Source of the DNA: Bacillota bacterium
GTDB taxonomy: Bacteria > Bacillota > Clostridia > Acetivibrionales > DUMC01
DNA: 32,806 nt
Assembly (NCBI GenBank): GCA_013314855.1
Contig: JABUEW010000040.1
Span: forward strand, 1-32,806
Direction of reading: 5' to 3'
Positions 357 to 22,834 of the stretch are shown here, piece after piece. Made by a program: the position numbers and the translations under genes. Under the pieces are notes generated by a model, which searched no databases, was not told the origin of the DNA, and saw nothing but the letters and a program-made list of their open reading frames with translations. The first letter of the stretch is position 1. Each line of letters starts with the position of its first letter.

Positions 357-1256
357 CTAAATTGATTTATCTATCGCTTTAGCAACAACCCCATCTGCCT
401 TTTTTAAAAGCTCCTCCGCTTCAGCAATATCTACTTCTGCCTCTATCATGACTATTGCTGCTTTTACAGAATTTCCAGCCATCGCCAGATATCTTTCGGC
501 CTGTTCAAAACTAATTCCTGTTGCATGCATAATTAGCCTTACAGCTCTATCAATTAATTTTTTATTAGTAGGTATCATATCGACCATTAGGTTAGAATAT
601 ACCTTACCAAGCTTTATCATTGCCGTAGTTGTTATCATATTTAATATCATTTTCTGAGAGGTACCGGCCTTCATTCTTGTAGAGCCCATAATTACTTCCG
701 GTCCGGTAACAACTTCTATTTTATGATCAGCAATCTTACCTATTGCAGAATCCGGATTGTTTGAAAGGGATATGGTTTTTGCTCCTATCTCCCGAGCCTC
801 TTTTAGGGCCCCAATTACATAAGGAGTTCTCCCACTTGCAGTAATTCCCATCACAACATCTTTTTCACAGCAGCCTTTAGCCCTTATGTCTATACCACCT
901 TGTTCTTCGTTATCTTCAGTATCTTCAACAGGAGTGCGCATTGCCGTATCTCCACCGGCAATTATACCCTGTACCATATCCGGAGGAACGCCAAATGTAG
1001 GGGGACATTCTGCAGCATCGGCAATAGCTATTCTACCACTAGTACCGGTACCAACATAAAACAATCTTCCGCCTTTCTTGAAAGACTCCACTACTATTTC
1101 TATAGCTTTTGAAATATCCGGTATAACCTTCTCAACACAAAATGCCACTGTTTTATCTTCTTCATTTATAAGTTTTAAAATTTCCAAGGTATCCAACCTG
1201 TCTATATTCTTTGTATTTTGATTTCGTTGTTCTGTAATAAGTTGTCCAAGATTCAT
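357..1256 (-). CDS. murQ: N-acetylmuramic acid 6-phosphate etherase (MurQ)
   Basis: Cleaves the D-lactyl ether of MurNAc-6-phosphate to GlcNAc-6-phosphate and D-lactate in the cytoplasm. The 299-residue protein has the full family length and a SIS sugar-phosphate fold: GTGTSGR near residue 70, DAAECPPTF with Glu83, a second acidic cluster with Glu114, and GSTRMKAGTSQK further on. Glu83 and Glu114 fall at the numbers I recall for the catalytic pair of E. coli MurQ. The ATG is preceded by GGAGGG. It is the last gene of a minus-strand series, 71 bp after a BadF-family hexosamine kinase that could supply its phosphorylated substrate, as in the clostridial MurK-MurQ pair. NagA/NagB, which would finish the pathway, are not in this window. 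Confidence 0.95.
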   Translation of the reverse strand: MNLGQLITEQRNQNTKNIDRLDTLEILKLINEEDKTVAFCVEKVIPDISKAIEIVVESFKKGGRLFYVGTGTSGRIAIADAAECPPTFGVPPDMVQGIIAGGDTAMRTPVEDTEDNEEQGGIDIRAKGCCEKDVVMGITASGRTPYVIGALKEAREIGAKTISLSNNPDSAIGKIADHKIEVVTGPEVIMGSTRMKAGTSQKMILNMITTTAMIKLGKVYSNLMVDMIPTNKKLIDRAVRLIMHATGISFEQAERYLAMAGNSVKAAIVMIEAEVDIAEAEELLKKADGVVAKAIDKSI

Positions 1257-1327: not shown

Positions 1328-2401
1328 TCACATATCAATTTGATTTAGTATGTCTATTTGCTTTAGTGAATTTTTGAAATTTTCATAAAAGCAATCATGG
1401 ATTTCTCCTTCAGCATATTTGCCAAGTTCACCTTCAGAAAAACCATCATATTCCCTTTTTGCTCTCATAACTGCTTCAACAACAGCGCCGTATACAGGAG
1501 GAAGTTCCGGTTGTATAAGAAGAAAGTCATTATTTAGATAAGATTTGAATCTCTCCTTCAATACAGCACCAGAATTCCATAAGCCTCCTGTTAAAACAAC
1601 CGGATACGGTAATATGGCAGGATGATGAGAATGGTGAGGCTGATGAGGATGGTGCGATTCTTTTAGATACTTGGCGCCCGCTTTGACTAATAATGCAAGT
1701 TCTTCTGCGCAGGTATCCAGAATCTGTCCGGCTACGACATCACCTTTGGCTTCCGCTTCAAATATTAAAGGTGCAAAAGATGCTATAAATTGCTTTCCTT
1801 TTTGATAAATCTCAGGAATAAATTTATAAACCGGTCCTCCCAGACGTTTACTATATAGCTCAGATAAAATTGTGTTAGCTCCCCTTCCATCATAATCCCT
1901 AAGTACCGCACAAAAGCCTCTACGACCTAAATCATAACCACTGCCCGCATCATCCAGAAGATAACCCCAACCACCTATCTGTGTAATTTTTTCATTATTG
2001 CGCACAAATACTACAGAACCGGTTCCTGCTATTAAAACCATACCATTTTTGTAACCAATACCACTGTTTAAAGCATTTATTGCATCACTGCCACTATAAA
2101 TAAAAGTTGCATTAGGTAACATATTTCTAAAAAAAGAAAAATACCTTTCCTTGTTATTCCCTACACTTCCACCGGAAAGACCAGCATAAAAAGAATAAAG
2201 GGGTATTTCAAATCCGCCATAGTTTTCAAGCAGCCTCAAAAGCATTCTCCTTAAATATTCTACGGATTTTTCAAATCCTATATCATTAGGGTTTGTGGAA
2301 CCACCTACTATACGCTTTAATACCCTTCCGTCAAGGGTGCACAAGACCATGTCGGTCTTGGTCGCACCACCATCAACAGCTACTATGTATTCATTCAACA
2401 T
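1328..2401 (-). CDS. BadF/BadG-family N-acetylhexosamine kinase (MurK-like)
   Basis: Predicted ATP-dependent cytoplasmic kinase for GlcNAc and/or MurNAc. The start shows the phosphate-1 motif VDGGATKTDMVL; a GTGSVVFV segment and GGWGYLLDDAGSGYDLG follow, then VLTGGLW near the C-terminus, all typical of the BcrAD/BadF ATPase fold. I prefer the ATG at 2401 over the in-frame ATG at 2416, because GGAGAG lies 9 bases before it; the protein is then 357 residues. It begins 25 bp after the DUF4838 gene and is followed by murQ, so it probably makes the MurQ substrate; a MurNAc/GlcNAc kinase of this family is known in Clostridium acetobutylicum. An odd feature is a His/Pro-rich insertion (7 His in 12 residues, near residue 250) just before the last core strand. 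Confidence 0.85.
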   Translation of the reverse strand: MLNEYIVAVDGGATKTDMVLCTLDGRVLKRIVGGSTNPNDIGFEKSVEYLRRMLLRLLENYGGFEIPLYSFYAGLSGGSVGNNKERYFSFFRNMLPNATFIYSGSDAINALNSGIGYKNGMVLIAGTGSVVFVRNNEKITQIGGWGYLLDDAGSGYDLGRRGFCAVLRDYDGRGANTILSELYSKRLGGPVYKFIPEIYQKGKQFIASFAPLIFEAEAKGDVVAGQILDTCAEELALLVKAGAKYLKESHHPHQPHHSHHPAILPYPVVLTGGLWNSGAVLKERFKSYLNNDFLLIQPELPPVYGAVVEAVMRAKREYDGFSEGELGKYAEGEIHDCFYENFKNSLKQIDILNQIDM

Positions 2402-2426
2402 TATCACACTCTCCATGATATTTTAT

Positions 2427-4190
2427 TTACATGCGATAATCTACCCTGTATAGACCTTCTCTATCATGACTGTATCGACTTGCCTTCATTTTGTCAATAG
2501 ACATTTGAAGATTCTTTCTCTCAAATATTTCAGTAATTCCATGTCTTTTAAGTTCCTGGGCAAATCTATCTACCATTTTGCTGCGAAATGGACTATCTAA
2601 AGGCATACGGCTTAAAATAGTGTAAGTGACCTGCAACCTGAGACTTCTAACTCTTTCCAATACAGCATCATCATCAGCCATGTATTCCGCTTGATCAAAT
2701 AAAGCTTCCGCTTTATTTAACAATTCATCGGTAAAATATGGAGCATCAGGCATGTCATAGATACTCATGTGATAAGGCTTTACAGCATTCTCCATCATAT
2801 CCAAATATTGACTTATAGGTATTGAAGCCTGACCGAAATATCCCACCAGAAACTCATTAATAATAGCCTTCACATCTATATAGGGATTCCAAAGTAATTT
2901 TGCCTGCACATATGCCTCAAGTTCTGCCATAGTCCCTCCGCCGCCATGAGAAAAGTTGCCTTGTTCAAGAACTCCTTTGACACCATACTTGTGGAATAAC
3001 TGCAAATTTGGTTGTAGTACATGCAGGTTTGGGAATGGCATCATATAATTGGCAAAATTAGTAACATAATCCCATATATAGAGATTTTCACAAATTTGCG
3101 ACCAAGCCTTAAGATCACTCAAAAACGTTGTTCTCTCTTGTTTGTCCCTTCTTATAGCCTCAACATCACAAGTTTCCAACGGATGAGAAAAACAGCATTC
3201 AATAGTGCATAACCGTACTATGACGTTTTTTGCAGGTCGTACAAATTTTGGTGTTTTTCGTGTGTATTGATATGCAAAGGTGTGTATGAACTTATCCGGA
3301 TACTCTTCTTCTATGGCTTCAGCAATCTTATTTACAAAAGTGATCATAGTTCCAGCATGACTTTCTTCCCGCTCATCAACAGCTCTACACTTTTCGCAGG
3401 TACAAAAATTATACCAATCATTTTGTGCAACCGAATATACATTACAGGAAGGATCTTGTTTAATCCATTCTTTTACTCTTTCTATGCACAGCTTAAGTAC
3501 ATCAGGGTTAGTTAAGCAAAGTTGAGTACGTTCACTTATTCTCTTACCATTAATTTCGGAAAAATATTCCGGATGAGAAGAAAAGTATTTCTCTACAGGT
3601 ACTAAATCATTAAAAGAATGGTGAAAATTAAAAAACTTGAATTTACCACCCTGTCGCTCTGTAATATCAGCTTTATTCGAATTCAGCTTGTTCCGTACAG
3701 CAAAATTACCGTCAAAAGCATCACGCCAATATGCCTCTCTATAATCAAAAGCCGGCACTTGCATATCATCTATTTCAGGCAGTGCTACTTTAGAACGTTG
3801 CGGAATCCTGCTTACTTTTGATGAAAACCATCGGCAGCCAAGGTAATCCTCTAGGAAAGTATATACACCATAAATTGTCCCACGTGGCTTTGCACCAGTG
3901 ATAACCAGGTTATCACCTATTGTTTTAATAATAAAGCCTTCACTGCCAAGTTTTGAAAGATTAATATTTATTCCTAATTCTTTGTAGCGATTGCTTGGAC
4001 CTACTAAGATTTCCGGCCCTCGTTTTACCACCTTATCAGTAATAACCGGAACAACTGAACGGGTTACTTTATATATAAAATGATGTAATTCATCTGCAGC
4101 ATATTTTTCTGTTTCAGAAGCATCCCAGGATACTACAATATGCCAGGAAGTCAAACCATTTTCAGCTAGTATATATTTGTTAGCGTTCAT
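2427..4190 (-). CDS. DUF4838 glycoside hydrolase-like protein
   Basis: A 587-residue protein with no signal peptide, so probably cytoplasmic. The first ~130 residues resemble the non-catalytic alpha/beta domain that precedes catalytic barrels in GH67/GH20-type enzymes, ending in the hallmark GAKPRGTIYGVYTFLEDY. The rest matches DUF4838 as I know it: HPEYFSEINGKR, LCLTNPDVLKLC, then SVAQNDWYNFCTCEKC with a CxCxxC cluster, and a long helical tail. The substrate is unknown. ATG 4190 is chosen over ATG 4229 because AAGGAG lies 9 bases before it. It sits between the solute-binding protein and the hexosamine kinase, consistent with releasing an amino sugar from an imported saccharide; that role is inference. 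Confidence 0.8.
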   Translation of the reverse strand: MNANKYILAENGLTSWHIVVSWDASETEKYAADELHHFIYKVTRSVVPVITDKVVKRGPEILVGPSNRYKELGININLSKLGSEGFIIKTIGDNLVITGAKPRGTIYGVYTFLEDYLGCRWFSSKVSRIPQRSKVALPEIDDMQVPAFDYREAYWRDAFDGNFAVRNKLNSNKADITERQGGKFKFFNFHHSFNDLVPVEKYFSSHPEYFSEINGKRISERTQLCLTNPDVLKLCIERVKEWIKQDPSCNVYSVAQNDWYNFCTCEKCRAVDEREESHAGTMITFVNKIAEAIEEEYPDKFIHTFAYQYTRKTPKFVRPAKNVIVRLCTIECCFSHPLETCDVEAIRRDKQERTTFLSDLKAWSQICENLYIWDYVTNFANYMMPFPNLHVLQPNLQLFHKYGVKGVLEQGNFSHGGGGTMAELEAYVQAKLLWNPYIDVKAIINEFLVGYFGQASIPISQYLDMMENAVKPYHMSIYDMPDAPYFTDELLNKAEALFDQAEYMADDDAVLERVRSLRLQVTYTILSRMPLDSPFRSKMVDRFAQELKRHGITEIFERKNLQMSIDKMKASRYSHDREGLYRVDYRM

Positions 4191-4212
4191 TTTTATTTCT
4201 CCTTCCTTTATG

Positions 4213-4374
4213 TTAAAGTATGATACCAAATACTTTCATTTCATCAGGTTTAAATGTAAGCTTAACGCAACCATTCTCTATAGGATATTCTTCCTTTGTA
4301 TAAAGCTCTACCAATTTTCCAGTAAAGGGAAGTTTCAGTATTCTTTCGCCACCTGTATGGGTGCAGTCCCTTTT
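4213..4374 (-). pseudogene. 3' relic of a lost gene, ~53 codons
   Basis: On the minus strand an open stretch between in-frame stops (TAA at 4375-4377 and at 4213-4215) encodes a protein-like C-terminus: GGERILKLPFTG, KLVELYTKEEYPIENG, CVKLTFKPDEMKVFGIIL. It looks like the terminal beta-sandwich strands of a glycosidase or related enzyme, but it has no start codon, no ribosome binding site and no upstream domain. It ends 22 bp before the DUF4838 start, in the same direction. I read it as the tail of a gene deleted from the operon; the family is not identifiable. Confidence 0.6.
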
Positions 4375-4553: not shown

Positions 4554-6086
4554 TTAGTCAGGATTTTCCTTTTTATAGATTTCAGTTGCTTGTTGTTCCC
4601 ATATTTTGCCACCCTCAGCCATCCATCTCGAAATATATTTTTTATATTCTGCTTCTACATCACCAGTTGTAACAATAAGATTTGCTAAAGCTTCTTTTTC
4701 AATATCACTTAATGTAGTCCCTAGTTCCTTTGCTATTGCCGGCACTCCAAAAATAAAAGCATCTTTTAAAAAGTTTTTACTGCAAAGGTCAAATGCCTTT
4801 CGTGTAGTCGAATTTAGGGTCATTATCTCAGTATTGTCATTATAACGGTAAAACAATGGCCAGAAAATAAATCCTCCGTCAGACCTGTGAGTTGCGGGAA
4901 CATCATAAGGTGGTAGATATTCAAATTTGCCGTTAGCCTTATCAATCCATTTAAAATGCACACCTTCAATTCCTAAATACAGCAATTCATCTCCTTCTTT
5001 TGTGGTCAAATAATTCATAAGCTTCATAGCTTCTTCAGGATTTTTGCAGGATTTTGCAATACCCTTATAACTAGTGCTGAAAGGTTGAACCATGCCTCCA
5101 ATTCCATCTTCGCCTTTAATAATTGCAAAGTCAAAGGTAGGTTTCACTTCTTCAGTATATCTGCCAAGCCAGTTGTTAGTAGTGCCTGTAGCTGGAAAGT
5201 CTATAGCGCCATATGTTCCATTCCAAAGTTTCTCAAGGCAAGCCATATTTGGAATGGTTGCAAAATCAGGCTCCATTAATCCTTCATTGTAAAGTTTTCT
5301 CCAGTATTCGATAGCTTTTAGATAATTTGGATGCTTCATATATGTGGTAACTACACCATCCACCATAATAGGTCTCCCATACGGTATACCAAAAGCGCCA
5401 AATATATTTGTATACATGCTATCATATTTAATACAACTAGCTAGACCTATTGTGTCATTTTTACCGTTTTTATTTGGATCATTGTAAGTAAAGGCTTTCA
5501 TTACATTGTAAAAGCTGTCCAAATCATTAGGCATATCCATATTAAGATTTTTGAGCCAATCCGTACGGATAGCCAAACTGGTAGGATAACCGGGAGGACT
5601 CGGAATACCCCAGGTAATTCCACCTGCGTTTAGTCCTCTACCAAAGTAATCCTTACGATTTTCAAGTATATCCTTACCATATGTCTTTAATAGTTCATCT
5701 AATTCGAGCAATATTCCGTTTTGAACGTACAATTCTCCATTACTCTGACTAAAGCTAAAAATGTCAGGTAGGCTATTTGATGCAATCATTGCATTGAGTT
5801 TAGTCATACTTTCTCCTGGTCCTACAAGTATCGGGCTCCAGTTAATACCGGTTCTTTTACGGACTTCAGCAATAATAGAAGCATTTTCAGCCGGCACGGT
5901 GCCTTCTTCATGTAAAGATACAATGGTTACAGGGTCTTTCTTTTGCTCAGTTGCACTCCTATCTGTGGCATCGTCACCCTTATCCCCTGTTTGTATGCCT
6001 GTTGTAGTCATTTTGCACGAAGTAACAGCAAATAACATACAGAAAGCAAAAACTAATACTAATACTTTAATAACTTTACTTTTCAT
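4554..6086 (-). CDS. Carbohydrate ABC transporter solute-binding lipoprotein
   Basis: Captures a saccharide outside the membrane and delivers it to the LplB/LplC permease pair encoded upstream. The 510-residue precursor starts with a basic, hydrophobic signal peptide and a lipobox VTSC with Cys24 as the lipidated residue. A Thr/Asp/Lys-rich linker follows, then a family 1 extracellular binding fold with typical stretches: NAMIASNSLPDIFSF, GITWGIPSPPGYPTSL, LMNYLTTKEGDELLYLG. Length and organisation fit the large LplA-like CUT1 binding proteins of Clostridia and Paenibacillus. GGGAGG lies 9 bases before the ATG. It is 83 bp after lplC and followed by a hairpin. The ligand cannot be read from sequence; the downstream genes suggest an amino-sugar glycan. 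Confidence 0.92.
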   Translation of the reverse strand: MKSKVIKVLVLVFAFCMLFAVTSCKMTTTGIQTGDKGDDATDRSATEQKKDPVTIVSLHEEGTVPAENASIIAEVRKRTGINWSPILVGPGESMTKLNAMIASNSLPDIFSFSQSNGELYVQNGILLELDELLKTYGKDILENRKDYFGRGLNAGGITWGIPSPPGYPTSLAIRTDWLKNLNMDMPNDLDSFYNVMKAFTYNDPNKNGKNDTIGLASCIKYDSMYTNIFGAFGIPYGRPIMVDGVVTTYMKHPNYLKAIEYWRKLYNEGLMEPDFATIPNMACLEKLWNGTYGAIDFPATGTTNNWLGRYTEEVKPTFDFAIIKGEDGIGGMVQPFSTSYKGIAKSCKNPEEAMKLMNYLTTKEGDELLYLGIEGVHFKWIDKANGKFEYLPPYDVPATHRSDGGFIFWPLFYRYNDNTEIMTLNSTTRKAFDLCSKNFLKDAFIFGVPAIAKELGTTLSDIEKEALANLIVTTGDVEAEYKKYISRWMAEGGKIWEQQATEIYKKENPD

Positions 6087-6169: not shown

Positions 6170-7054
6170 CTAACCTTTTATTGAACCGATTAGAACCCCC
6201 TTAACATAGTATTTTTGTAGCCATGGATAGACTATTAATACAGGTATAACAGACGCAGAAATTGCCGCCATTTTCATTGTCTCCTCGGACATTCCCGAAC
6301 CGGCTATTGCCCTGTCTTCAGCCTGTCCTAATTGACCAAAAGCAGAAAAATTAATCATAGAACGTAAATATACTTGAAGTACTTGTTTTGCCGGATCATC
6401 AATATAGATTACACAATCAATATAAGCATTCCAATGTGCAATTCCGTAGAACATTGCCATGGCAGCAAAAACAGGCTTAGAAAGAGGAACAATTATACTT
6501 ACGAGGGTACGAAACGGCGTGGCTCCGTCAATATTTGCAGATTCTTCTAAACTCGGAGGTAGTGCTTGAAAGAAATTTCTCATTATAAACATATTATAGG
6601 CACTTATAGCACCCGGTAAGATTAAGGACCACATGGAGTTTAGAAGTCTCAACTCCTTTACAAGTAGAAAAGTTGGAATCATTCCACCCGAAAAAAGCAT
6701 GGTAAAGAAAATTACCATTGTCCAGAAGTTTCTTCCAACAAAACGTTTTATTGATAAAGGATATGCAATTGAAGCCGTCATAATTAGGTTAACCATAGTT
6801 CCAACAAAAGTACGTATAATAGAATTTTTATATGTAGTAAAAATAAGTTTGTTTTTAGCCAACAAAATATATGCTGACAATGTAGGCTGCCGCGGGTAAA
6901 AAAATAGTCCACCCTCCATTGCAGCCCTTGAGTTGCTTATAGAATACATTATTACATGCCAAAAGGGATAAAGAGTAATAAAAGCTAAAAACCCGAGTAT
7001 AAAATATATTATTATACGACCTATAACTTCACCTTTTGTCGATTTTGTATTCAT
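6170..7054 (-). CDS. Carbohydrate ABC transporter permease, LplC type (CUT1)
   Basis: Inner-membrane permease subunit of 294 residues with six hydrophobic segments, beginning IIIYFILGFLAFITLYPFWH. The cytoplasmic EAA loop that contacts the ATPase is clear: LEESANIDGATPFRTLV, followed by SIIVPLSKPVFAAM. The C-terminus ends YYVKGVLIGSIKG, the usual LplC/YtcP ending. GGGGGG lies 13 bases before the ATG. It is flanked by the DUF6259-like gene (79 bp) and the binding protein gene (83 bp), all in one direction. No ATPase gene accompanies the two permeases, so a shared MsmK/UgpC-like ATPase elsewhere is presumably used. Confidence 0.93.
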   Translation of the reverse strand: MNTKSTKGEVIGRIIIYFILGFLAFITLYPFWHVIMYSISNSRAAMEGGLFFYPRQPTLSAYILLAKNKLIFTTYKNSIIRTFVGTMVNLIMTASIAYPLSIKRFVGRNFWTMVIFFTMLFSGGMIPTFLLVKELRLLNSMWSLILPGAISAYNMFIMRNFFQALPPSLEESANIDGATPFRTLVSIIVPLSKPVFAAMAMFYGIAHWNAYIDCVIYIDDPAKQVLQVYLRSMINFSAFGQLGQAEDRAIAGSGMSEETMKMAAISASVIPVLIVYPWLQKYYVKGVLIGSIKG

Positions 7055-7133: not shown

Positions 7134-10100
7134 TTACCACTCTATAGCTAAATAGTCACTTTTATCTACAAGGCATTTTAGACGTACCAAGCTACCACTA
7201 TCTTGATAGCGTTCCAGAATATGCCCGTTACCTGATACTATATGCATACTCTCTATATTAGTTACTGAGTATTCAGCAGCATTAAATTCACAGGTCCATG
7301 TAATAGCTTGCTCACTTGTATTAAATAGGAACAACACCGTTCGGGTACCATCCCACAATTTCCAGGCTCCCGCTGATACAACAGGAGCATCAAAAACTCC
7401 AGGATATCTCATTCCAGCTATTGTTATAATACGAGGAACATCACCAATTATCTTTGGTGGCCGTAACATGGAGCCTTTATAGAAAAATTCACGATAATCC
7501 CAACGTAGTTTTACCATTTTCTTTAGATAATCCAACTTTTCTTTATGGTAGACTATGTCGGAATTTAACCAACCTATCTGTTGACCATAAAGTATTTGTT
7601 GAGATATGTGGAATTTAAAATAAGGTATATCTTTTTTCTTATAGCCATTAATGTTACGACCAAACATAACAATATAACTGCCATATATGCTTGAAAACGC
7701 CGGAACCTGGTTTGGATGTATCCATACCCAGGTCAAGTAACCATCAAAACTTTTAGCATATACTTCAGCATTGCACTCAGTTGTATATGCACAATCCTTT
7801 GGTTTTTCAATATTTAACCTGTTCATAAAGTTCCAATAGGCATCAATCCACCAACTCCCACCACCCGGTAGATGATTATGATTCTTATCCATACATAGAT
7901 TAGCTCCGGCAGCTGCAACCTGGTCTATGTAAATTGCATTAACATTGTATTTCTGGAAAAGCTGTTTTGCAGTGTTACCCATTACTTTTTTCCATAAGTA
8001 ACTGCTTGGACACATTGCAGCTAATTGGACTAACGAGCCGTCCGATTCATGTGCTGCATAAGTTTCAAGGTATAGCTCTCCGTCTGCTTTTTTTGTTGCC
8101 CATGGCAAAGCAATATTGCTAAATTGATAATCCTGATCCCGCCGATCCAATATGTCCCATAACCTGCCGTTTATGTAAGGCATTATATATATACCTTCTG
8201 CTTGCATAGCTTTTATACCTGTTTCAAAACCTTCTTTTGTAGGAAAATAATGAGGATAATCATTGTTAAATGGAATCCAGTGCCAGTTGTAAACATGATA
8301 GCCGACAGGTACACCTAACTCTTTCTTAAGTAAAATAGGAGTTTTATACCAACTTTCTCTGTCACTTTCTTCTTTTTCAGGTCGGACACTTATAGGGATA
8401 GGGTCAGCATCAGGGTTATCGTTAGGCATCCAATCCATAATCCAAAACGACATTTCTCTCATCCACAATGGGGTATCTTCCCGCCCTTCTTTACTTACCT
8501 TAGGCATCCATTTAGCTTGAGTATGCACAAACCTTTTGTATATTTGTGTTGCATCAAACCAGTCACCGGAAAATATCTGCCAAACCATACATCCTGGAAG
8601 TGAAAACGCATTTGCAGGTTCTCCACGATTAACAGCAGGGTAATTATATGAAAGCATACCTTGTTTGCTGCTTCTAAAGGTGTTAAATGTGATGTCTTTC
8701 CGACTGCCGACATCGTCATGCACAGCAACATATATTCCATTATTTTGGTTATTTTTATTATTATAAATAGCGAAATACGGCATAACATAATAAAATCCTG
8801 AGGGGTAGCTGCCATATAAATGTCTTGAGTATGAACAGGCATCGTTTATCACTTCACCAGGATTTGCTGGAATAAAAGCATCTAAATTCTCCCCTTCAAA
8901 AGATACATTTGGATACGTAACTGACATTACTGAAATATTGGGATTGTCATTGAGTACATCCATTGTCCATTCAATACGATGTTCTTTAGCAATTGCCCGT
9001 GCTTTCAAAACAACTGCAAAATCTTTTAATTTCCCATCTCCTGGATTAATAAATTTAAGAGATATACCTTCACTTTCTTTTTCAACTATGGTATTTTCCC
9101 ATCCATTATCAGAGTCTATCCAATATCTTTGCTTGGTATCCAGTTCTAGAATATCAACTTCAAACAATGGTAATACTTTTTTACTTAGAAATAGATTTGC
9201 CGTATTATTATTTGTATCACAATTTGTTGAATCATAATTATTACCATAATTATTTATTCTGCTTAAAAAAATGCCGGTTCTTCCTTTTTCCAGAACTACT
9301 TCCATAAAGCCTGCCTTCAATGAATACATCTCTTTAGATTCAATTGTCGAAGATGATTTTTTCGCTTCCGGAATAATCTCAGGCAAGCTATTACAAAGCG
9401 CCTGATAATTTTTGTGAGAATAACTGTCATTTGGACAAATACTTCCGAAAAGTAGCCATACACTTAATGGCCGCTCTGCATTTAAAATCCGCAAATCACT
9501 GTTAAAATTTCTCAATTCATAATCAGGTATCAGTGAGCATGTATTTGGATCCAGCATTACCTGTCCACTTTCTCTTAATCCAAACCAGCAATCATCGCCT
9601 ACCAGATTAATACCTTCCCTAAAAGCTATAGGATGCTCCAGTTCACTTATGCTGCCATGCATATATGGTCCAACACCATAAAACTCTTCATATCTCGTTT
9701 CTTCCGGAATTAAATTCATCCATTGTAAATTGCCACAGAAAACATGATCATTGCTTAAAAAACTCGTTGTAATATAGATTGCTGGCAAATTTCTCATTAA
9801 GTATAATTTATAGCATACTATAAGTCCTGGAATTGGTTCCCCTGTATTAGTGTCAATCGGACACGAATTAATCCGGATTATTGAAGAACAACTCTCGGAA
9901 TATTTATTAACATAGTCATTTATTAACAATTGAGTCTTATCATGGAAGATCCAGTAGGTACCTTGTTTCTGGATATTTTCTTGTCTTGCAGATGGTAGAT
10001 TTATAATTTTATCTTCACTCGAAAAGCTTATCCTATTTCCTGAAGATTCATGGGTTATTTCCAGTTTAAGAACATGGTTATTAGAGTCAATAGTACAATT

Positions 10101-10145
10101 CGTTTTGTATTCACCATTACAAAATGTATTTATTAATGTCTTCAT
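7134..10145 (-). CDS. Large cytoplasmic glycosidase-like protein (DUF6259-like)
   Basis: A 1003-residue protein with no signal peptide or membrane segment. The N-terminal ~550 residues are beta-rich (sandwich-like); the middle looks like a TIM barrel: VPVGYHVYNWHWIPFNN near 610-625, IYIMPYINGRLWD near 655, AIYIDQVAAAGA near 737, a TTECNAEVYAKSF strand near 795. A C-terminal beta domain closes it. The layout resembles DUF6259 and related retaining glycosidase clans; the Asp of YIDQV and the Glu of TTECNAE are plausible catalytic residues, but this is inference. AAGGAGGA precedes the ATG. Its position between the two permease genes means it should act on the transported saccharide inside the cell. 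Family call moderately sure, function unknown. Confidence 0.65.
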   Translation of the reverse strand: MKTLINTFCNGEYKTNCTIDSNNHVLKLEITHESSGNRISFSSEDKIINLPSARQENIQKQGTYWIFHDKTQLLINDYVNKYSESCSSIIRINSCPIDTNTGEPIPGLIVCYKLYLMRNLPAIYITTSFLSNDHVFCGNLQWMNLIPEETRYEEFYGVGPYMHGSISELEHPIAFREGINLVGDDCWFGLRESGQVMLDPNTCSLIPDYELRNFNSDLRILNAERPLSVWLLFGSICPNDSYSHKNYQALCNSLPEIIPEAKKSSSTIESKEMYSLKAGFMEVVLEKGRTGIFLSRINNYGNNYDSTNCDTNNNTANLFLSKKVLPLFEVDILELDTKQRYWIDSDNGWENTIVEKESEGISLKFINPGDGKLKDFAVVLKARAIAKEHRIEWTMDVLNDNPNISVMSVTYPNVSFEGENLDAFIPANPGEVINDACSYSRHLYGSYPSGFYYVMPYFAIYNNKNNQNNGIYVAVHDDVGSRKDITFNTFRSSKQGMLSYNYPAVNRGEPANAFSLPGCMVWQIFSGDWFDATQIYKRFVHTQAKWMPKVSKEGREDTPLWMREMSFWIMDWMPNDNPDADPIPISVRPEKEESDRESWYKTPILLKKELGVPVGYHVYNWHWIPFNNDYPHYFPTKEGFETGIKAMQAEGIYIMPYINGRLWDILDRRDQDYQFSNIALPWATKKADGELYLETYAAHESDGSLVQLAAMCPSSYLWKKVMGNTAKQLFQKYNVNAIYIDQVAAAGANLCMDKNHNHLPGGGSWWIDAYWNFMNRLNIEKPKDCAYTTECNAEVYAKSFDGYLTWVWIHPNQVPAFSSIYGSYIVMFGRNINGYKKKDIPYFKFHISQQILYGQQIGWLNSDIVYHKEKLDYLKKMVKLRWDYREFFYKGSMLRPPKIIGDVPRIITIAGMRYPGVFDAPVVSAGAWKLWDGTRTVLFLFNTSEQAITWTCEFNAAEYSVTNIESMHIVSGNGHILERYQDSGSLVRLKCLVDKSDYLAIEW

Positions 10146-10207: not shown

Positions 10208-11155
10208 TTAAATTATTCCGCTATACGGGTCTATTTTTTTAGCAATTGCATTTGTTAAAAGCACCATAATTAATCCAACAAATGATTTAAATACACCTGC
10301 TGCAGTAGCTAAAGAAAAATCATGCTGCACTACACCAACTTTATATACGTAAGTATCAATAATTTCACTCACTTCATATACAAGTGGATTGTATATCGCG
10401 AAAATTTGTTCAAACCCTGCCTCGAGTAAAGCACCAACCCTTAAAATTAAAAGGACAACAATAGTAGGACGGATTGAAGCCAAAGTAATATGCCACATTT
10501 GTTTCCATTTACCTGCCCCATCAATTATAGCTGCTTCATATAATTCTTGTTCAATTCCACTTATTGCTGCAAGGTATACTATTGTTCCCATACCCATACC
10601 CTTCCAGATATCCGATAGAACAATTACATATCTGAAATGGTTTTTACTGCCCATGATATCGGTAACCTTCCCAACATATCCAAATGCAGAAGCAACACCT
10701 TTAATAATTCCTGAATTTGGTGAAAATAGTATAAACATTATCCCACCGATTACCACCCAGGATATAAAGCTGGGAAGCAATAATGATGTCTGCACAAACT
10801 TTTTGTATTTAGAGTTTATAACTTCATTTATCATTAATGATAATACTATAGGTGCAGGAAAGCCAAAAATGATTTTAGCAAAACTAATAATTATTGTATT
10901 TCTAAGAGCCCGGTTAAAACCAGGAAGACTGAAAAGCTTTATAAATACATTAAAACCAACAAAAGGGGACTCAGCAAAGCCCTTAAATATATTATAATCT
11001 CTAAAAGCTATAGTGATACCATACATTGGTACATATTTGAATAGTATAAAGTAGAATATTCCCGGTACAGCTAATAAATAAAGAAGGTAATCCTTCCTCA
11101 TTAGTCTTAACTTTTTGTGAATAGTATTAATGGTTAGTTTTTCCCCTGATATCAT
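10208..11155 (-). CDS. Carbohydrate ABC transporter permease, LplB type (CUT1)
   Basis: The partner permease of 315 residues. It begins with a cytoplasmic tail and the typical LplB first helix YLLYLLAVPGIFYFILFKY, then VPMYGITIAFRDYN. The EAA loop is EAAIIDGAGKWKQMWHI followed by TLASIRPTIVV. The end is AIAKKIDPYSGII, characteristic of the subfamily. AAGGAG lies 10 bases before the ATG. It is the first structural gene after the regulator, separated from it by a 300-bp gap that holds a candidate promoter and a catabolite-control site, so the transport/catabolism genes probably have their own start. Confidence 0.93.
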   Translation of the reverse strand: MISGEKLTINTIHKKLRLMRKDYLLYLLAVPGIFYFILFKYVPMYGITIAFRDYNIFKGFAESPFVGFNVFIKLFSLPGFNRALRNTIIISFAKIIFGFPAPIVLSLMINEVINSKYKKFVQTSLLLPSFISWVVIGGIMFILFSPNSGIIKGVASAFGYVGKVTDIMGSKNHFRYVIVLSDIWKGMGMGTIVYLAAISGIEQELYEAAIIDGAGKWKQMWHITLASIRPTIVVLLILRVGALLEAGFEQIFAIYNPLVYEVSEIIDTYVYKVGVVQHDFSLATAAGVFKSFVGLIMVLLTNAIAKKIDPYSGII

Positions 11156-11455: not shown

Positions 11456-13756
11456 TTAATTTTGTCTAAGTTGGTAACGTTCCCTATACTGGGATGGTGT
11501 GCATAAAAATCTCTTTTTAAACTGACGGTAAAACGCTTGTTTTGTCTCGAAACCACATTCTAAAGCTATGTCCATTATTGACTTTGACGATAGCTGTAGT
11601 TCATTGGCCGCATACTTGATTCGTAGCTGATTAATATATTCTGCAGGTGATATACCCATCTCATCTCTTAATAATCTATGCAGGTAGGATACACTAATAA
11701 AAAATTTTGAAGCAATATCATTAACCGTTAAAGGTTCTTTATAATGAATTTCTATATACTGCTTTATCTTCAGTGTGATCTCCTGTTTTTTCCTGACATT
11801 AGCCTGGTAATAACATTCCATTACGAAAATAGAGAATTCACGAATTATTATGAGCTGTTCATTTAAGCTCTGTGATTTTATAAGCATGGACAAATATTTC
11901 GAAGTTGTTTCATCGGTTTTAGCAGGATAATCATCCATCTCATAAAGTAATTTATGAATATTATTATACATATTGGTAAATATTAGTTTTAACGCTATTA
12001 CATTAGTAGGAGTATTTACTTTTATAAATTTCTCAATTTCATTAATACTGCGGTCAATACCCTCCTTGTCGCAGGTCCTGATAGCATATTGAAGTGATTC
12101 ATCTTGTACAAATGGATAATTAAGCTGCCCAACTATATTTGTGTTCAAATATTCATAGCATCCTACAGGTTTGTTACCCATCATAAGCTGGTATTCATAA
12201 GCCTGAATTGCTTCCATAAAAGCTTGATGAAGCGATCTGATTTCTTTCTTTTCGGCACTGATACCAACATAGATACCTATATGGAATTCATGCTTAAATC
12301 CATCTATTATGGTTTCCATTTTTTCAACGAAGTTTTGTAATAGATAATCCTGGTAATTTATAACAATAAAAAATTTAAATGGTTCAAACTGTACTATATA
12401 AAATGAATCCATATCTCTCATGTTTTCCGTTAAATATTCTTTATACATTTCGATTTTTAAATAATCCATAGTACCTAACATATCAATATAGTCATTAATG
12501 TAAATAACCATTACACGAAATAATTTTCCATTAAATTTTATCCCCAGTGAGTATAGTTGCTCCATCAAATTTTTTTCATCATTGCTTTGTTGTAAAACAA
12601 TCTGCAGCAGGTACTTCTCCCTTAGCAACGGAATGTTCCGTTTTGCTATATTACGTAATTGATCATTATCATTTACTAGTCTTTCGAACATACTTGTAAG
12701 GTATTGAATCCTATCAACTTGTTCCGGATGTACAAAACGCTCTCTTACCATTTTATATAAACGCCTTAGTGGCTCATATATTCTCATAGCTACGGGTATA
12801 CTTAATAGTATTCCTATTAATATTACAATATATAGTAAAGTAATAACTGTAGTTTTCAAAGGTTTACTCATTTTAACAACATCATTATACGGAACTATTT
12901 GAATAAAAGTCCATCCGCTTAAATTTGACTCGTCATATACAGCTATATATTTTTTGCCGTAGATATCAACTTGTGTATTCTTATCCCTGTTAGATTGCAA
13001 TAACACATTAATATATTCATTGTATTCATTATTTGAGTCCTCAAAGTTATTGTGTTCTATGGCATATAATAATTCTTCATTATTATTAAAGATATATATT
13101 TTTTCATTATTAAAAATTTTAATTTGTTCCAGAAGATTTTCAATAACCTTGTGATTTATTTGTGCTGCAAGGTATCCTTCTTCCTTACCCGAAATCAATT
13201 CCCGGGTTATATAAATACCAGGACAGTTCCCGTCTTTCTTGTTAATCATGCTAAAACCTAAGAACTGTATTTTATCCCGTTCGGATTTTCCAAGTGTGTT
13301 ATATTTTTCTTCCGGATATAAACCATTAGCAATGACCAGACGTTGTTTCGGGTAGTGAATATACATATTGTTAATTATTGTATTCGCATGCAATGTTTCA
13401 CTGATCATCTTCTCAATTTTCATAGCAATATTTACTTGTTGTTGCTTGTTAAAATCAGAATATCTTGCCATCATTAATACCTCGGAATTTGTCGATAATT
13501 CATAAAGAGCAGTTTGTAGACTGCTAATCTGGTTGTTCAACTGGTTCTTTGTCTCTTCCACCTTCATCCGGATAAGCTGAGTATATATATTCACAATCTG
13601 ATTGCGAGCAGTGAAATATATCAAAGTTAAAATAATACTACATACTAGAAGTATTATGATTGTTATATACATTGCTGCTCGTACTATATTGGGATCCATA
13701 AGCAAAAGTATTCTATTAATATTGACTTTAAACTTATGACTTCTATTGTTTTTCAT
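11456..13756 (-). CDS. Membrane-anchored AraC-family regulator with extracytoplasmic sensor
   Basis: A 766-residue one-protein signalling device. TM1 spans about residues 27-48; an extracytoplasmic Cache-like sensor of roughly 240 residues follows; TM2 is near 300-322, then a cytoplasmic linker. The C-terminal ~100 residues are a two-helix-turn-helix AraC domain: LTVNDIASKFFISVSYLHRL, then SIMDIALECGFETKQAFYRQ and FKKRFLCTPSQYRERY. Such proteins are typical neighbours of LplB/LplC operons and probably activate them on sensing the glycan or a product outside the cell. AAGGAGG precedes the ATG. It is 300 bp upstream of lplB in the same direction and divergent from the HAD-ROK pair. Confidence 0.9.
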   Translation of the reverse strand: MKNNRSHKFKVNINRILLLMDPNIVRAAMYITIIILLVCSIILTLIYFTARNQIVNIYTQLIRMKVEETKNQLNNQISSLQTALYELSTNSEVLMMARYSDFNKQQQVNIAMKIEKMISETLHANTIINNMYIHYPKQRLVIANGLYPEEKYNTLGKSERDKIQFLGFSMINKKDGNCPGIYITRELISGKEEGYLAAQINHKVIENLLEQIKIFNNEKIYIFNNNEELLYAIEHNNFEDSNNEYNEYINVLLQSNRDKNTQVDIYGKKYIAVYDESNLSGWTFIQIVPYNDVVKMSKPLKTTVITLLYIVILIGILLSIPVAMRIYEPLRRLYKMVRERFVHPEQVDRIQYLTSMFERLVNDNDQLRNIAKRNIPLLREKYLLQIVLQQSNDEKNLMEQLYSLGIKFNGKLFRVMVIYINDYIDMLGTMDYLKIEMYKEYLTENMRDMDSFYIVQFEPFKFFIVINYQDYLLQNFVEKMETIIDGFKHEFHIGIYVGISAEKKEIRSLHQAFMEAIQAYEYQLMMGNKPVGCYEYLNTNIVGQLNYPFVQDESLQYAIRTCDKEGIDRSINEIEKFIKVNTPTNVIALKLIFTNMYNNIHKLLYEMDDYPAKTDETTSKYLSMLIKSQSLNEQLIIIREFSIFVMECYYQANVRKKQEITLKIKQYIEIHYKEPLTVNDIASKFFISVSYLHRLLRDEMGISPAEYINQLRIKYAANELQLSSKSIMDIALECGFETKQAFYRQFKKRFLCTPSQYRERYQLRQN

Positions 13757-19512: not shown

Positions 19513-19612
19513 GTATATGATTACCTTTGCGGAATAAATAAAAGAATGATAGTTATACATGCTTGGTAGCATAAAAAATACCTTAGAAATAAAATGTTTT
19601 AAAGGTGTACCT

Positions 19613-20434
19613 ATGCTTGAAAAATTTTATATAGCCCAATACAATAACACAGATTTAAATATGTACCGGTGTGGTATAGAGGACTGCTTACCCGGTCACT
19701 CCTGGGGTCCTGCCATAAGGGACCATTATATTATTCATTATATTATAGGTGGGAAAGGCATTTTCCAGGCTAGAGGATTAACTTATCATCTGGAAAAAGG
19801 CTACGGCTTTTTAATATGCCCAAATACAATAGTATATTATGCTGCAGACACCAAAGAACCATGGAGTTACACATGGGTAGGTTTCCATGGGCTTAAAGCG
19901 GAAACTTATCTGAACCTGGCCAATCTTTCTATTGGCAACCCAATTTTTAGATATGATAAAGATGATTTCCTCCTAAATTGTTTCAAGCAGATGATTAACA
20001 GCATGAATCTGACAAAAGGCAGGGAAGCAAGGTTGATTGGCCTCTTATATACTCTACTGTCGCAACTTATTGAATGCGCCGATGATAATAAAAGCCATAA
20101 AAAAAAGAAAAACATAAAAGAAGAACATCTTAAAAAAGCAGTAGAATATATTGCCATGAATTACTCAAGAGAAATTAGCATCGGGAATATTGCCACCCAT
20201 GTCGGCCTGGACAGAAGTTATCTATATTCCATCTTTAAGCAATATCTTTCTACTTCACCCCAGGGCTTTCTTATTAATTTCCGTATGGATAAAGCGTGTG
20301 AACTTATGCTGGATCCTTCTCTTTCAATAGGAGATATTGCCCGTTCGGTAGGATATGAAGATCCGCTGCTTTTTTCAAAAGTATTTAAAAAAATAAAAGG
20401 AGCCTCTCCACGGGAATACAGGAGAGGCCGGTAG
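19613..20434 (+). CDS. AraC-family regulator of galactose genes (paralogue 1)
   Basis: A 273-residue cytoplasmic regulator: an N-terminal cupin-like sugar-binding domain (HYIIGGKGIFQARGLTYHL, then GYGFLICPNTIVYYAAD) and a C-terminal AraC double HTH (ISIGNIATHVGLDRSYLYSI, then SIGDIARSVGYEDPLLFSKV). The ATG at 19613 is chosen over an ATG at 19559, because AAAGGTG lies just before it and the start then aligns residue for residue with its paralogue encoded at 22004. It is divergent from galTKE and converges with the GH4 gene, with 5 bp between stop codons. The likely effector is galactose or an alpha-galactoside; that is inferred from neighbours. Confidence 0.9.
   Translation: MLEKFYIAQYNNTDLNMYRCGIEDCLPGHSWGPAIRDHYIIHYIIGGKGIFQARGLTYHLEKGYGFLICPNTIVYYAADTKEPWSYTWVGFHGLKAETYLNLANLSIGNPIFRYDKDDFLLNCFKQMINSMNLTKGREARLIGLLYTLLSQLIECADDNKSHKKKKNIKEEHLKKAVEYIAMNYSREISIGNIATHVGLDRSYLYSIFKQYLSTSPQGFLINFRMDKACELMLDPSLSIGDIARSVGYEDPLLFSKVFKKIKGASPREYRRGR
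20402..20428 (+). terminator. Possible terminator hairpin inside the 3' end of AraC paralogue 1
   Basis: GCCTCTCC (20402-20409) and GGAGAGGC (20421-20428) form an 8-bp GC-rich perfect stem with an 11-base loop, overlapping the last codons. It is followed within 9 bases only by a short TATTTT. The tight convergence with the GH4 gene leaves no other room for a terminator, but the U-run is poor. Confidence 0.35.
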
Positions 20435-20439
20435 TATTT

Positions 20440-21762
20440 TCATGTCCTGTGCTTAAACTGGGGCAACCAATCCTTGTTTGCCTCGAACATCTCGTCCACC
20501 ATCGCTTTTATTTCCGACAGGCTCAATACTGCAGAAGTTAATGGATCAAAGCATATGGCATGGAATACTTTTCTCGGATCACCGGTTATTGCTGCTTCTA
20601 CGGCTAATTCTTCACACCTTGCGCTAATATTGTTTAAAATTGCCAGGTGGTCCGGTAATGGTCCTACATGAATCGGGTCAAGCCCTCGTTTCGAAGCCAG
20701 AATGGGTACTTCTACGCAACAGCCTTCCGGCAGGTTGTCAATAAGGCCGAAGTTCCTGACATTCCCGTTAAATTCAAACATAGTACCGTCGCCTATGGTT
20801 GCATTAAAAATACTGGCTGCATACTCATGTCCTCTTTTTAAGTCGATCGTATCCCTATTTAACCATTCTTCTATATCCTTCTTCCATGTATCTTCTCTCT
20901 CAAGGTAATGCTTCAATATATAGGCATACTCTCCAGGATTCCAGCCTGTACCATGTGTACAATATTTCTCAATAAGATCGGGCCTTTTCCTAAACCAGGC
21001 ATTATATTCCGAATTGTGCCCGCTAGACTCGGTAACATAGTAATCCAGGTGCAGGAACATTTCGTTTCTAACCTGTTCTTCATTATAAATTTCAGGTCTT
21101 TTAATAGCTTCTCTTATTAAAGGATAAGCGTCTTTTCCATTCCATTTAAATTCAAGATACCATGCCTGGTGGTTGATACCGGCACAAAGATATGTAATTT
21201 CCTCCATGGGTGCCCCAATCCATCTTGCCAGCATTTGAGCTGTTCCCTGGACACTGTGGCAAAGCCCCGTCAACTTAACCTTTGTTTCACCCTGCATAGC
21301 CCTGCACAGCATAGCCATTGGGTTTGTATAGTTTAAAAATATTGCATCCGGACAATAACGCTCTATATCCCTGCATATATCAAGCATTACCGGTATTGTC
21401 CTCAGTGCTCTGAATATTCCCGAAGGTCCCCTGGTATCTCCCACATTAATGTCAACCCCATATTTTTTTGGTATCTCAATGTCGTAGCGCCACACATGAA
21501 CTCCTCCGGCAAGGATCGTACATACAACACCATCCGCATCTTTTAAAGCTTCAGCCCTGTCTTTGGTAGCAATTACTTTAGCCGGGTAGTTTCCTGCCGC
21601 AACAATTTTGTCTACAGCTTTCTTTATATAGGCAAGCCTTTCGTCATCAATGTCCATAAGTGCTATGGTACAATCATTAAACGCAGGGAAAGAAAGAATA
21701 TCCCGGACAAGGGATCTGGTAAATCCAAAACTTCCCGCCCCTATAAACGCTATTTTCTTCAT
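20440..21762 (-). CDS. melA: Alpha-galactosidase, glycoside hydrolase family 4 (MelA type)
   Basis: Cytoplasmic NAD+- and Mn2+-dependent glycosidase releasing galactose from melibiose, raffinose-type or other alpha-galactosides by a redox mechanism. The 440-residue protein has the N-terminal Rossmann motif FIGAGSFGF, the NYTNPMAM motif (Asn147), the metal motif LCHSVQ (Cys168-His169) and GINHQAW (His198). CHSV rather than CHEV is the form seen in alpha-galactosidases. No ribosome binding site stronger than GAGGGG is seen before the ATG. It is divergent from AraC paralogue 2 and should feed galTKE. Other GH4 specificities (for example alpha-glucuronidase) are possible but less likely here. Confidence 0.88.
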
Positions 21763-21974: not shown

Positions 21975-22003
21975 ATAATCGAAATAGGAGTGAATTGCCT
22001 TAT

Positions 22004-22834
22004 ATGATGGAAATTGTGCCTATTGAAAGGCTAAATACGACGGATTTAAATATGTATCAATGCGGTACAGAGAGATGCAAACCGGGACACTATTACGGGC
22101 CGGCAGTAAGAGACTATTTTCTCATTCATTATATTTCCGAGGGTAAGGGTATTTTCCAGGTAGGAGATACTATATATAATTTGAGCGGCGGGCAGGGTTT
22201 TTTAATATGTCCGGGGATAGTTACTTATTATCAGGCAGACTTTGAAGACCCCTGGAATTACTCCTGGGTCGGCTTTCATGGACTAAAAGCAGAATTTTAT
22301 CTCAAGAAAGCAAACCTTTCTGCTGAAAACCCTATTTTTACATATAGAAAAGATAAATTTATAGAAAACTGTTTCAAACAAATGCTTGAATCCAAACAAA
22401 TGCCAAAATCTAAAGAAATCAGGCTTTTAGGATTCCTATACCTTTTTCTTTCCCAATTGATAGAGGAAAACAATCAGCCACTTTTCCTGGAAGAAGATAT
22501 TAACAGAAAGGAGCAATATGTAAAAAAGATAGTAGAGTTTATTGAAATAAACTATTCCAGGAAGGTAAGCATAAGGGAAATAGCACGCTATGTGGGCTTG
22601 GACAGAAGTTACATGGGTGCAATATTCAAAGAATACTTTAACACTTCACCTCAGAACTATTTAATAAATTTTAGAATAAACAAAGCCTGTACCTTGATGA
22701 AAAACCCAAGTTTATCCATAGGCGATATTTCCCGCTCGGTAGGCTATGATGACCCACTGTTATTCTCAAAAATGTTTAAAAAAATAAAGGGTATGTCTCC
22801 AAGGGTATACAGGAAAAAGAACATAATAACATAA
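22004..22834 (+). CDS. AraC-family regulator of the GH4 gene (paralogue 2)
   Basis: A 276-residue paralogue of the regulator at 19613-20434, with the same cupin domain (HYISEGKGIFQVGDTIYNL) and double HTH (VSIREIARYVGLDRSYMGAI, SIGDISRSVGYDDPLLFSKM); by eye well over half of the residues are identical. ATG 22004 aligns with the paralogue start; AGGAG is 13 bases before it, and an in-frame TTG at 21995 sits 4 bases after that AGGAG, so the true start is uncertain. It is divergent from the GH4 gene. Its stop codon ends 1 bp from the 3' end of the convergent tRNA gene. Confidence 0.88.
   Translation: MMEIVPIERLNTTDLNMYQCGTERCKPGHYYGPAVRDYFLIHYISEGKGIFQVGDTIYNLSGGQGFLICPGIVTYYQADFEDPWNYSWVGFHGLKAEFYLKKANLSAENPIFTYRKDKFIENCFKQMLESKQMPKSKEIRLLGFLYLFLSQLIEENNQPLFLEEDINRKEQYVKKIVEFIEINYSRKVSIREIARYVGLDRSYMGAIFKEYFNTSPQNYLINFRINKACTLMKNPSLSIGDISRSVGYDDPLLFSKMFKKIKGMSPRVYRKKNIIT

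Follow-up and report, generated by a model that had tools for sequence, protein, structure and literature searches.

The systems closest to the locus described here are two routes of murein amino-sugar salvage and two glycoside hydrolases (GHs) at or near family GH129. The locus centers on P0001, a DUF6259 protein encoded in a stretch of 32,806 nucleotides from a Bacillota bacterium of the class Clostridia (contig JABUEW010000040.1), referred to below as the window. In the MurK-MurQ pathway of Tannerella forsythia, and with MurK of Clostridium acetobutylicum, a gene for a kinase of the N-acetylmuramic acid (MurNAc) type lies beside MurQ, as it does in the P0001 operon. The accessible portions of this literature report a murTKQ operon in T. 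forsythia and mention neither DUF6259 nor GH163. MupG (DUF871), the 6-phospho-N-acetylmuramidase of Staphylococcus aureus, is an intracellular glycosidase whose operon also carries murQ and a murein-sugar transporter (PMC6262408). It belongs to another family and acts after phosphorylation by a phosphotransferase system, whereas the P0001 operon has an ATP-binding cassette (ABC) transporter and a separate kinase.

The nearest structural relatives of P0001 come from a different setting. NagBb, the α-N-acetylgalactosaminidase of Bifidobacterium bifidum, is intracellular, as P0001 is predicted to be, and has the same domain order. Its catalytic Asp and its Cys407, Cys445 and His450 have aligned counterparts in P0001, in a weak alignment, and identity across the structural alignment is about 10%. 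The substrate of NagBb is N-acetylgalactosamine α-linked to Ser or Thr, and P0001 differs from it in an additional N-terminal sandwich and in its operon. ZgGH129 (DagB), an α-1,3-(3,6-anhydro)-D-galactosidase, gives the best profile match to the P0001 family; its own substrate is carrageenan. Both enzymes are hydrolases that act on α bonds.

We put at about one half the probability that P0001 is a cytosolic, retaining, α-cutting hydrolase of the GH129/GH36/GH101 superfamily that operates within an operon for the import of MurNAc oligosaccharides. That it is a glycoside hydrolase of a GH129-like superfamily is close to certain, and it likely takes part in the salvage of murein amino sugars. A literature search short of most subscription journals found no paper on the function of DUF6259 (PF19773), in line with an earlier note on this DNA that knew of no characterized activity for the family, and none linking GH129 with peptidoglycan or MurNAc.

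A GH129-like fold with two conserved acids

7134..10145, minus strand: P0001, DUF6259 protein of 1003 amino acids, predicted cytosolic GH129-like glycosidase (open reading frame, Pfam, model, structure and profile searches)

The open reading frame (ORF) starts with ATG, runs for 1003 codons and fills exactly these positions on the minus strand. Its DUF6259 match (E = 1.1e-77), a relative with 63% identity and its place in a fully supported clade of 13 tree rows mark it as a conserved coding gene. The Pfam match covers residues 514-830 and scores 261.6 bits against a gathering score of 28.7. Conservation and phylogeny were derived from 51 sequences, namely the window protein and 50 of 62 DUF6259 ORFs; the 12 omitted from the alignment, the tree and the residue counts were mostly truncated, low-scoring or overlapping frames.

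An AlphaFold2 model built from this alignment has a predicted local distance difference test score (pLDDT) of 89.0 and a predicted template modeling score (pTM) of 0.92. Two mutarotase-like β-sandwiches are followed by a triosephosphate isomerase (TIM) barrel and a C-terminal β domain.

9351..10145, minus strand: extra N-terminal mutarotase-like β-sandwich, residues 1-265 (separate model and structure search)
8571..9332, minus strand: second β-sandwich, residues 272-525, in place of the GH129/GH36 N-terminal domain (model)
7461..8468, minus strand: TIM barrel, residues 560-895 (model, structural alignment)
7137..7454, minus strand: C-terminal β domain, residues 898-1003 (model)

The sandwich, barrel and C-terminal β domain make up a GH129-type fold like that of NagBb. 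Residues 1-265 are present in five of the 13 clade members, 11 of which have a complete N-terminus and two of which are cut by contig ends. Modeled alone from those five sequences (pLDDT 79.4, pTM 0.82), this region resembles the mutarotase-like sandwich of GH129, GH36, GH97 and other proteins (Z about 14-16.5), so that P0001 would carry two such sandwiches in tandem. The residues that ZgGH129 needs for activity include an Asp from the partner monomer (PMC5698469). By analogy, the extra sandwich of P0001 might substitute for a partner monomer.

Candidate residues of the active center are as follows.

7923..7925, minus strand: D741, predicted nucleophile, last residue of barrel strand 4 (737-741) (conservation, model, alignment with NagBb Asp435)
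7776..7778, minus strand: E790, predicted acid/base, last residue of barrel strand 5 (786-790) (conservation, model)
8010..8012, minus strand: C712, identical in 51/51, candidate metal ligand, a guess (conservation, profile alignment)
7893..7895, minus strand: C751, identical in 51/51, candidate metal ligand, a guess (conservation, profile alignment)
7872..7880, minus strand: H756 and H758 with the residue between them, both identical in 51/51, candidate metal ligands, a guess (conservation; for H756 also profile alignment)

D741 is identical in all 51 aligned sequences, as are C712, C751, H756, H758, W621 and G854. E790 is kept in 50, and the exception (L142) has Asp. By our own count on the model, the two acids end successive strands, 4 and 5. 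This is the arrangement of catalytic acids in GH13, GH66, GH101 and GH129 enzymes; in clan GH-A the catalytic pair is two Glu residues that end strands 4 and 7. Since the conserved acids of P0001 stand on strands 4 (Asp) and 5 (Glu), a GH-A reading is rejected. With D741 as nucleophile and E790 as acid/base, cleavage of an α (axial) bond with retention is predicted. Metal binding by the invariant Cys and His residues is a guess; NagBb holds a calcium ion at its sugar site.

Much of this had been anticipated by the earlier note. It proposed a 1003-residue protein, without giving the strand, that lies between two permease genes, lacks a signal peptide and has a TIM-barrel-like core flanked by large β domains. 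The gene is indeed bounded by BPD_transp_1 permeases at 10208-11155 and 6170-7054, and the model has a catalytic-type barrel at about 560-895, the feature on which that proposal had been staked, with β domains on both sides. The first 45 residues of P0001 reach a Kyte-Doolittle maximum of 0.25 (averaged over 11 residues), whereas the operon's solute-binding protein reaches 3.25. By this simple hydrophobicity test, in place of a signal-peptide program, the N-terminus has no hydrophobic stretch. Lack of conservation of the two candidate acids, the Asp in AIYIDQVAAA (D741) and the Glu in TTECNAE (E790), would also have refuted the proposal, and both are conserved. Among the clans suggested for a fold search, GH101/GH129 was the right comparison and GH-A was not.

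Placement beside GH129

The best structural match of the model is NagBb (Z 26.2, root-mean-square deviation (rmsd) 3.5, 555 residues), followed by ZgGH129 (Z 23.2, rmsd 4.6, 572 residues; Foldseek 8.8e-23) and a Flavonifractor galactosaminidase (Z 22.1). Many α-amylase-type (GH13), GH36 and other enzymes follow at Z 20-21. Searched against the PDB, a profile built from all 51 sequences recovers ZgGH129 (8e-10) and NagBb (7.9e-5). A profile of the barrel only aligns weakly with NagBb (E = 0.029) and pairs D741 with Asp435, C712 with C407, C751 with C445 and H756 with H450, the NagBb numbers having been counted from the alignment rows. Unrelated proteins score near NagBb in that search, and the alignment is used solely because it agrees with the structural match. 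It ends before E790. The second catalytic acid of NagBb is presumably Glu478, on the next strand, and the place of E790 in the model would fit this. Asp435 has been named as catalytic in NagBb, and Asp486 is its counterpart in ZgGH129 (PMC5698469).

Single-sequence searches of Pfam, NCBIfam and the PDB assigned P0001 to no characterized GH family. NCBIfam gave nothing at E ≤ 0.1, and the PDB search, whose set included both NagBb and ZgGH129, returned no chain at E ≤ 5. Neither P0001 nor any of the 51 sequences gave a GH129 match in Pfam, where the existence of a GH129 model is unchecked. All 51 match DUF6259 at E ≤ 1. Weak side matches to Glyco_hydro_66 (15 of 51, best 2.4e-4), GHL6 (four), DUF5696 (three) and others agree with an α-type barrel and decide nothing. 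P0001 is related to GH129 through profiles only, with no family-level sequence similarity. Although the fold and one catalytic residue agree, P0001 should not be filed as GH129, because similarity lies under the family level and the activity is a prediction. A similar case was made by the discoverers of ZgGH129, who proposed to exclude it from GH129 proper, given an identity of 16% and the retention of Asp435 alone (PMC5698469).

Association with MurQ

The barrel tree of the 51 sequences, a quick tree whose deep joins are unsure, contains a fully supported clade A (n = 13) that includes P0001, a clade B (n = 19), a clade (n = 9) several members of which lie next to GH78 genes, and others. Gene neighborhoods were surveyed at 83 loci (L042-L064 and L120-L179; L056 and L057 overlap, L042 being on the same contig), drawn mostly from the stronger DUF6259 matches; phmmer with the window proteins finds 64 DUF6259 ORFs in them. 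Eight of the 13 clade-A loci are flanked by 7 kb or more on each side, and the other five (L044, L046, L047, L049 and L053) are cut by contig ends. MurQ, the MurNAc 6-phosphate etherase, lies within 10 kb in five of the eight (the window, L042, L043, L048 and L052), and a kinase gene is present in all five. Four lineages have MurQ close to a clade-A gene. In L052 the two genes share a strand and are 13 bp apart, in L043 they converge across 50 bp, and the distance is 1.2 kb in L048 and 4.5 kb in L042. A DUF4838 gene occurs in the window, L042 and L048. With the window and L042 counted as a single event, the chance of four MurQ-near loci in eight is about 7e-7, assuming 1% per locus, a value chosen to represent one MurQ per 2 Mb.

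An association is also found among whole genomes. Of 391 genomes sampled from the class, 52 have a MurQ over its curated cut-off, 62 have DUF6259 at E ≤ 0.001 (in 51 of them also over the curated cut-off) and eight have clade-A proteins (E below 1e-130; next match 5e-30). MurQ is present in all eight clade-A genomes, in seven of the 54 with other DUF6259 proteins only and in 37 of the 329 (about 11%) without DUF6259 (Fisher test for clade A, p = 6e-8). These counts could be slightly low, since only the best candidates per genome were scored (two for clade A, five each for DUF6259 and MurQ), and the eight genomes, from five families and seven genera, are not fully independent. MurQ is not rare, being over the cut-off in five of 14 named control genomes. 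Within one family (f34) the contrast is weak, at 4/4 versus 3/12 of those in a probably incomplete list (p = 0.02).

MurQ is present in a ninth clade-A genome (G002) as well, and in all nine tested it adjoins a BadF-type kinase gene. DUF4838 is likewise found in all nine, a count from clade-A genomes only that is given no weight. In the genome of the window, both MurQ genes over the cut-off lie close to a DUF6259 gene. One is in the window and the other on contig C68 (L055:7052-14869). There the genes after a distant DUF6259 paralog encode two permeases, a binding protein, MurQ in fourth position and an RpiR/SIS regulator. G002 has a second kinase-MurQ pair on its contig C103 (L185:3084-5007), with a short MurQ frame of 193 amino acids.

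Components of the operon

Strand and spacing suggest that the genes from AraC to MurQ, including P0001, form one operon.

11456..13756, minus strand: AraC regulator with a dCache-like sensor (under the Pfam cut-off), likely operon regulator (Pfam)
10208..11155, minus strand: ABC sugar permease A (BPD_transp_1)
6170..7054, minus strand: ABC sugar permease B (BPD_transp_1)
4554..6086, minus strand: ABC solute-binding protein with a hydrophobic N-terminus (Pfam, PDB matches, hydrophobicity)
2427..4229, minus strand: DUF4838/GH163-type protein, β-N-acetylglucosaminidase relative without a hydrophobic signal (DUF4838, E = 4.4e-103)
1328..2416, minus strand: BadF-type sugar kinase (Pfam; nearest solved structure 8zo3)
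357..1256, minus strand: MurQ, N-acetylmuramic acid 6-phosphate etherase (TIGR00274, PDB match)

MurQ scores 404.5 bits against an equivalog cut-off of 302 for TIGR00274 and matches solved MurNAc-6-phosphate etherases (4lzj, 9.9e-92). The best solved relative of the kinase is annotated as a MurNAc/N-acetylglucosamine (GlcNAc) kinase (8zo3, 1.3e-29). Its score of 86.8 bits with the NCBIfam NagK equivalog is under the cut-off of 370. MurNAc use by MurK of T. forsythia has been attributed to small side chains near the lactyl group. When the operon kinase is aligned through Gly145 of human NagK, it has Gly-Gly at this lactyl-pocket loop, as does the human enzyme, which allows MurNAc use and is no proof of it. 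Kinases beside MurQ often have an N-terminal helix-turn-helix, as though fused to a repressor (L043:12877-14040, L048:5424-6617, L052:6906-8030 and L181-L184). An RstR-like repressor domain matches those of L048 and L052, and those of L043, L182 and L184 start with similar sequence.

Among solved structures, the solute-binding protein comes closest to AlgQ2, AlgQ1 and other family-1 binding proteins, including an arabino-oligosaccharide binder. The DUF4838 protein has an N-terminal hydrophobicity maximum of 0.82, versus 3.25 for the binding protein. That the substrate enters intact, as the earlier note argued, is a fair deduction, because both glycosidase-like proteins lack a hydrophobic signal and the binding protein resembles oligosaccharide binders. 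What that note overlooked is that the kinase, MurQ and the GH163 relative point to murein amino-sugar salvage. One DUF4838 protein carries the label GH163 (PMC9870897). The characterized GH163 enzyme acts on N-glycans at the cell surface, unlike the signal-less protein of the operon; it cuts GlcNAc-β-1,2-mannose and can remove GlcNAc alone.

Galactose catabolism through the GalETK genes of the window was set aside, because the AraC gene and two genes on the plus strand separate these genes from the minus-strand run. A GH4 glycosidase gene at 20440-21762 has AraC genes on each side (19559-20434, convergent; 21995-22834, divergent) and probably belongs with them to a separate sugar regulon.

Other DUF6259 clades

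In clade B, an SIS-domain protein is encoded within 5 kb in 17 of 19 rows, 14 of which also have a BadF kinase (phmmer, >30 bits). One of the two rows without an SIS neighbor, L161, is cut by a contig end. Three of these SIS proteins were confirmed to be of the PRK02947 type. The clade-B cassette (L127:6856-12277, L163, L166, L170, L176 and others) comprises DUF6259, the PRK02947-type protein, a BadF kinase and an ABC transporter, to which some examples add a metallo-β-lactamase-fold protein and a UTRA-GntR regulator. Two separate clades thus share a kinase and an SIS-fold sugar-phosphate protein, which is MurQ in clade A and a relative in clade B. The sugar set free by DUF6259 enzymes may therefore often be one that is phosphorylated and then passed to an SIS-fold enzyme. 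Members of another clade lie 0-800 bp from GH78-like genes (L058, L060, L061, L121 and L122).

A proposed pathway and its alternatives

The gene and its fold, the conservation of the two acids, the gene content of the operon and the link with MurQ are computational results; the hydrolysis itself, the anomer cut, the substrate and the sequence of reactions are predictions. The ABC transporter would bring in a short MurNAc-containing oligosaccharide, from which the GH163-type enzyme would remove β-linked GlcNAc in the cytosol. P0001 would cut another bond, most likely that of an α-linked N-acetylhexosaminyl group or other α decoration on or beside MurNAc. The kinase would then yield MurNAc-6-phosphate, and MurQ would remove the lactyl ether to give GlcNAc-6-phosphate. 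An α-linked amino sugar or decoration is favored because the stereochemistry of the superfamily predicts α cleavage and the MurNAc of peptidoglycan is β-linked.

Several observations weigh against this proposal. The closest structural relatives of P0001 act on α bonds, at odds with the β linkage of MurNAc in murein. Three of the eight well-flanked clade-A loci (L045, L050 and L051) have neither MurQ nor a kinase nearby, and the L050 and L051 genomes have their kinase-MurQ pair elsewhere (L180 and L183). Two of the eight clade-A MurQ genes barely exceed the 302-bit cut-off (303.8 in G404 and 306.6 in G322). An association of MurQ with DUF6259 as a whole was tested and not found in the 391 genomes (7/54 versus 37/329, p = 0.65), being confined to clade A. 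Since other clades neighbor GH78 rhamnosidases or a different SIS protein and show no such association, the family has several substrates.

The main rival is that P0001 takes the place of MupG in the cytosol, as an exo-β-N-acetylmuramidase acting on unphosphorylated MurNAc-GlcNAc or something similar, the superfamily having switched anomer. Its neighbors resemble those of mupG, and every clade-A genome tested has the MurQ-kinase pair. NamZ, another exo-muramidase family, has no match in eight of these nine genomes, some of them incomplete, and a stop-interrupted piece in the ninth, a figure for clade-A genomes only. The switch itself makes this reading unlikely, as the close folds (GH129, GH36, GH101, GH31, GH13 and GH66) are α-specific.

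It is rather improbable that P0001 cuts an unrelated α-glycoside and has MurQ and the kinase as neighbors because these organisms cluster several scavenging genes. The three loci without nearby MurQ and the GH78 partners of other clades would fit such an arrangement. It accounts poorly for the occurrence of MurQ in all eight clade-A genomes over a background of about 11%, for the 13-bp same-strand spacing in L052 and for the second DUF6259-MurQ locus on contig C68. A glycoside phosphorylase or transglycosidase is very unlikely: related folds include transferases (cycloisomaltooligosaccharide glucanotransferase and GlgE) and the weak Glyco_hydro_66 matches point the same way, but NagBb and ZgGH129 are hydrolases, and direct production of a sugar phosphate would presumably make the operon kinase needless.

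Implications

DUF6259, a family for which we found no published function, is carried by 62 of the 391 sampled genomes, and its clade A is tied to MurQ and a MurNAc-type kinase. This link gives a concrete and cheap assay for the clade. A bolder proposal, less likely than not, is that clade A founds a new family of cytosolic murein-salvage glycosidases in which an α-type fold releases MurNAc, from an undescribed but abundant α-MurNAc glycan nutrient or after a switch to β bonds, and in which the Cys2-His2 set is a family-wide metal site beside the active center. If the salvage role of P0001 is confirmed, these bacteria would have a cytosolic, phosphate-free cutting route for imported murein-related oligosaccharides. 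Either a glycan with α-linked MurNAc would then be eaten as food, or the superfamily would have changed anomer.

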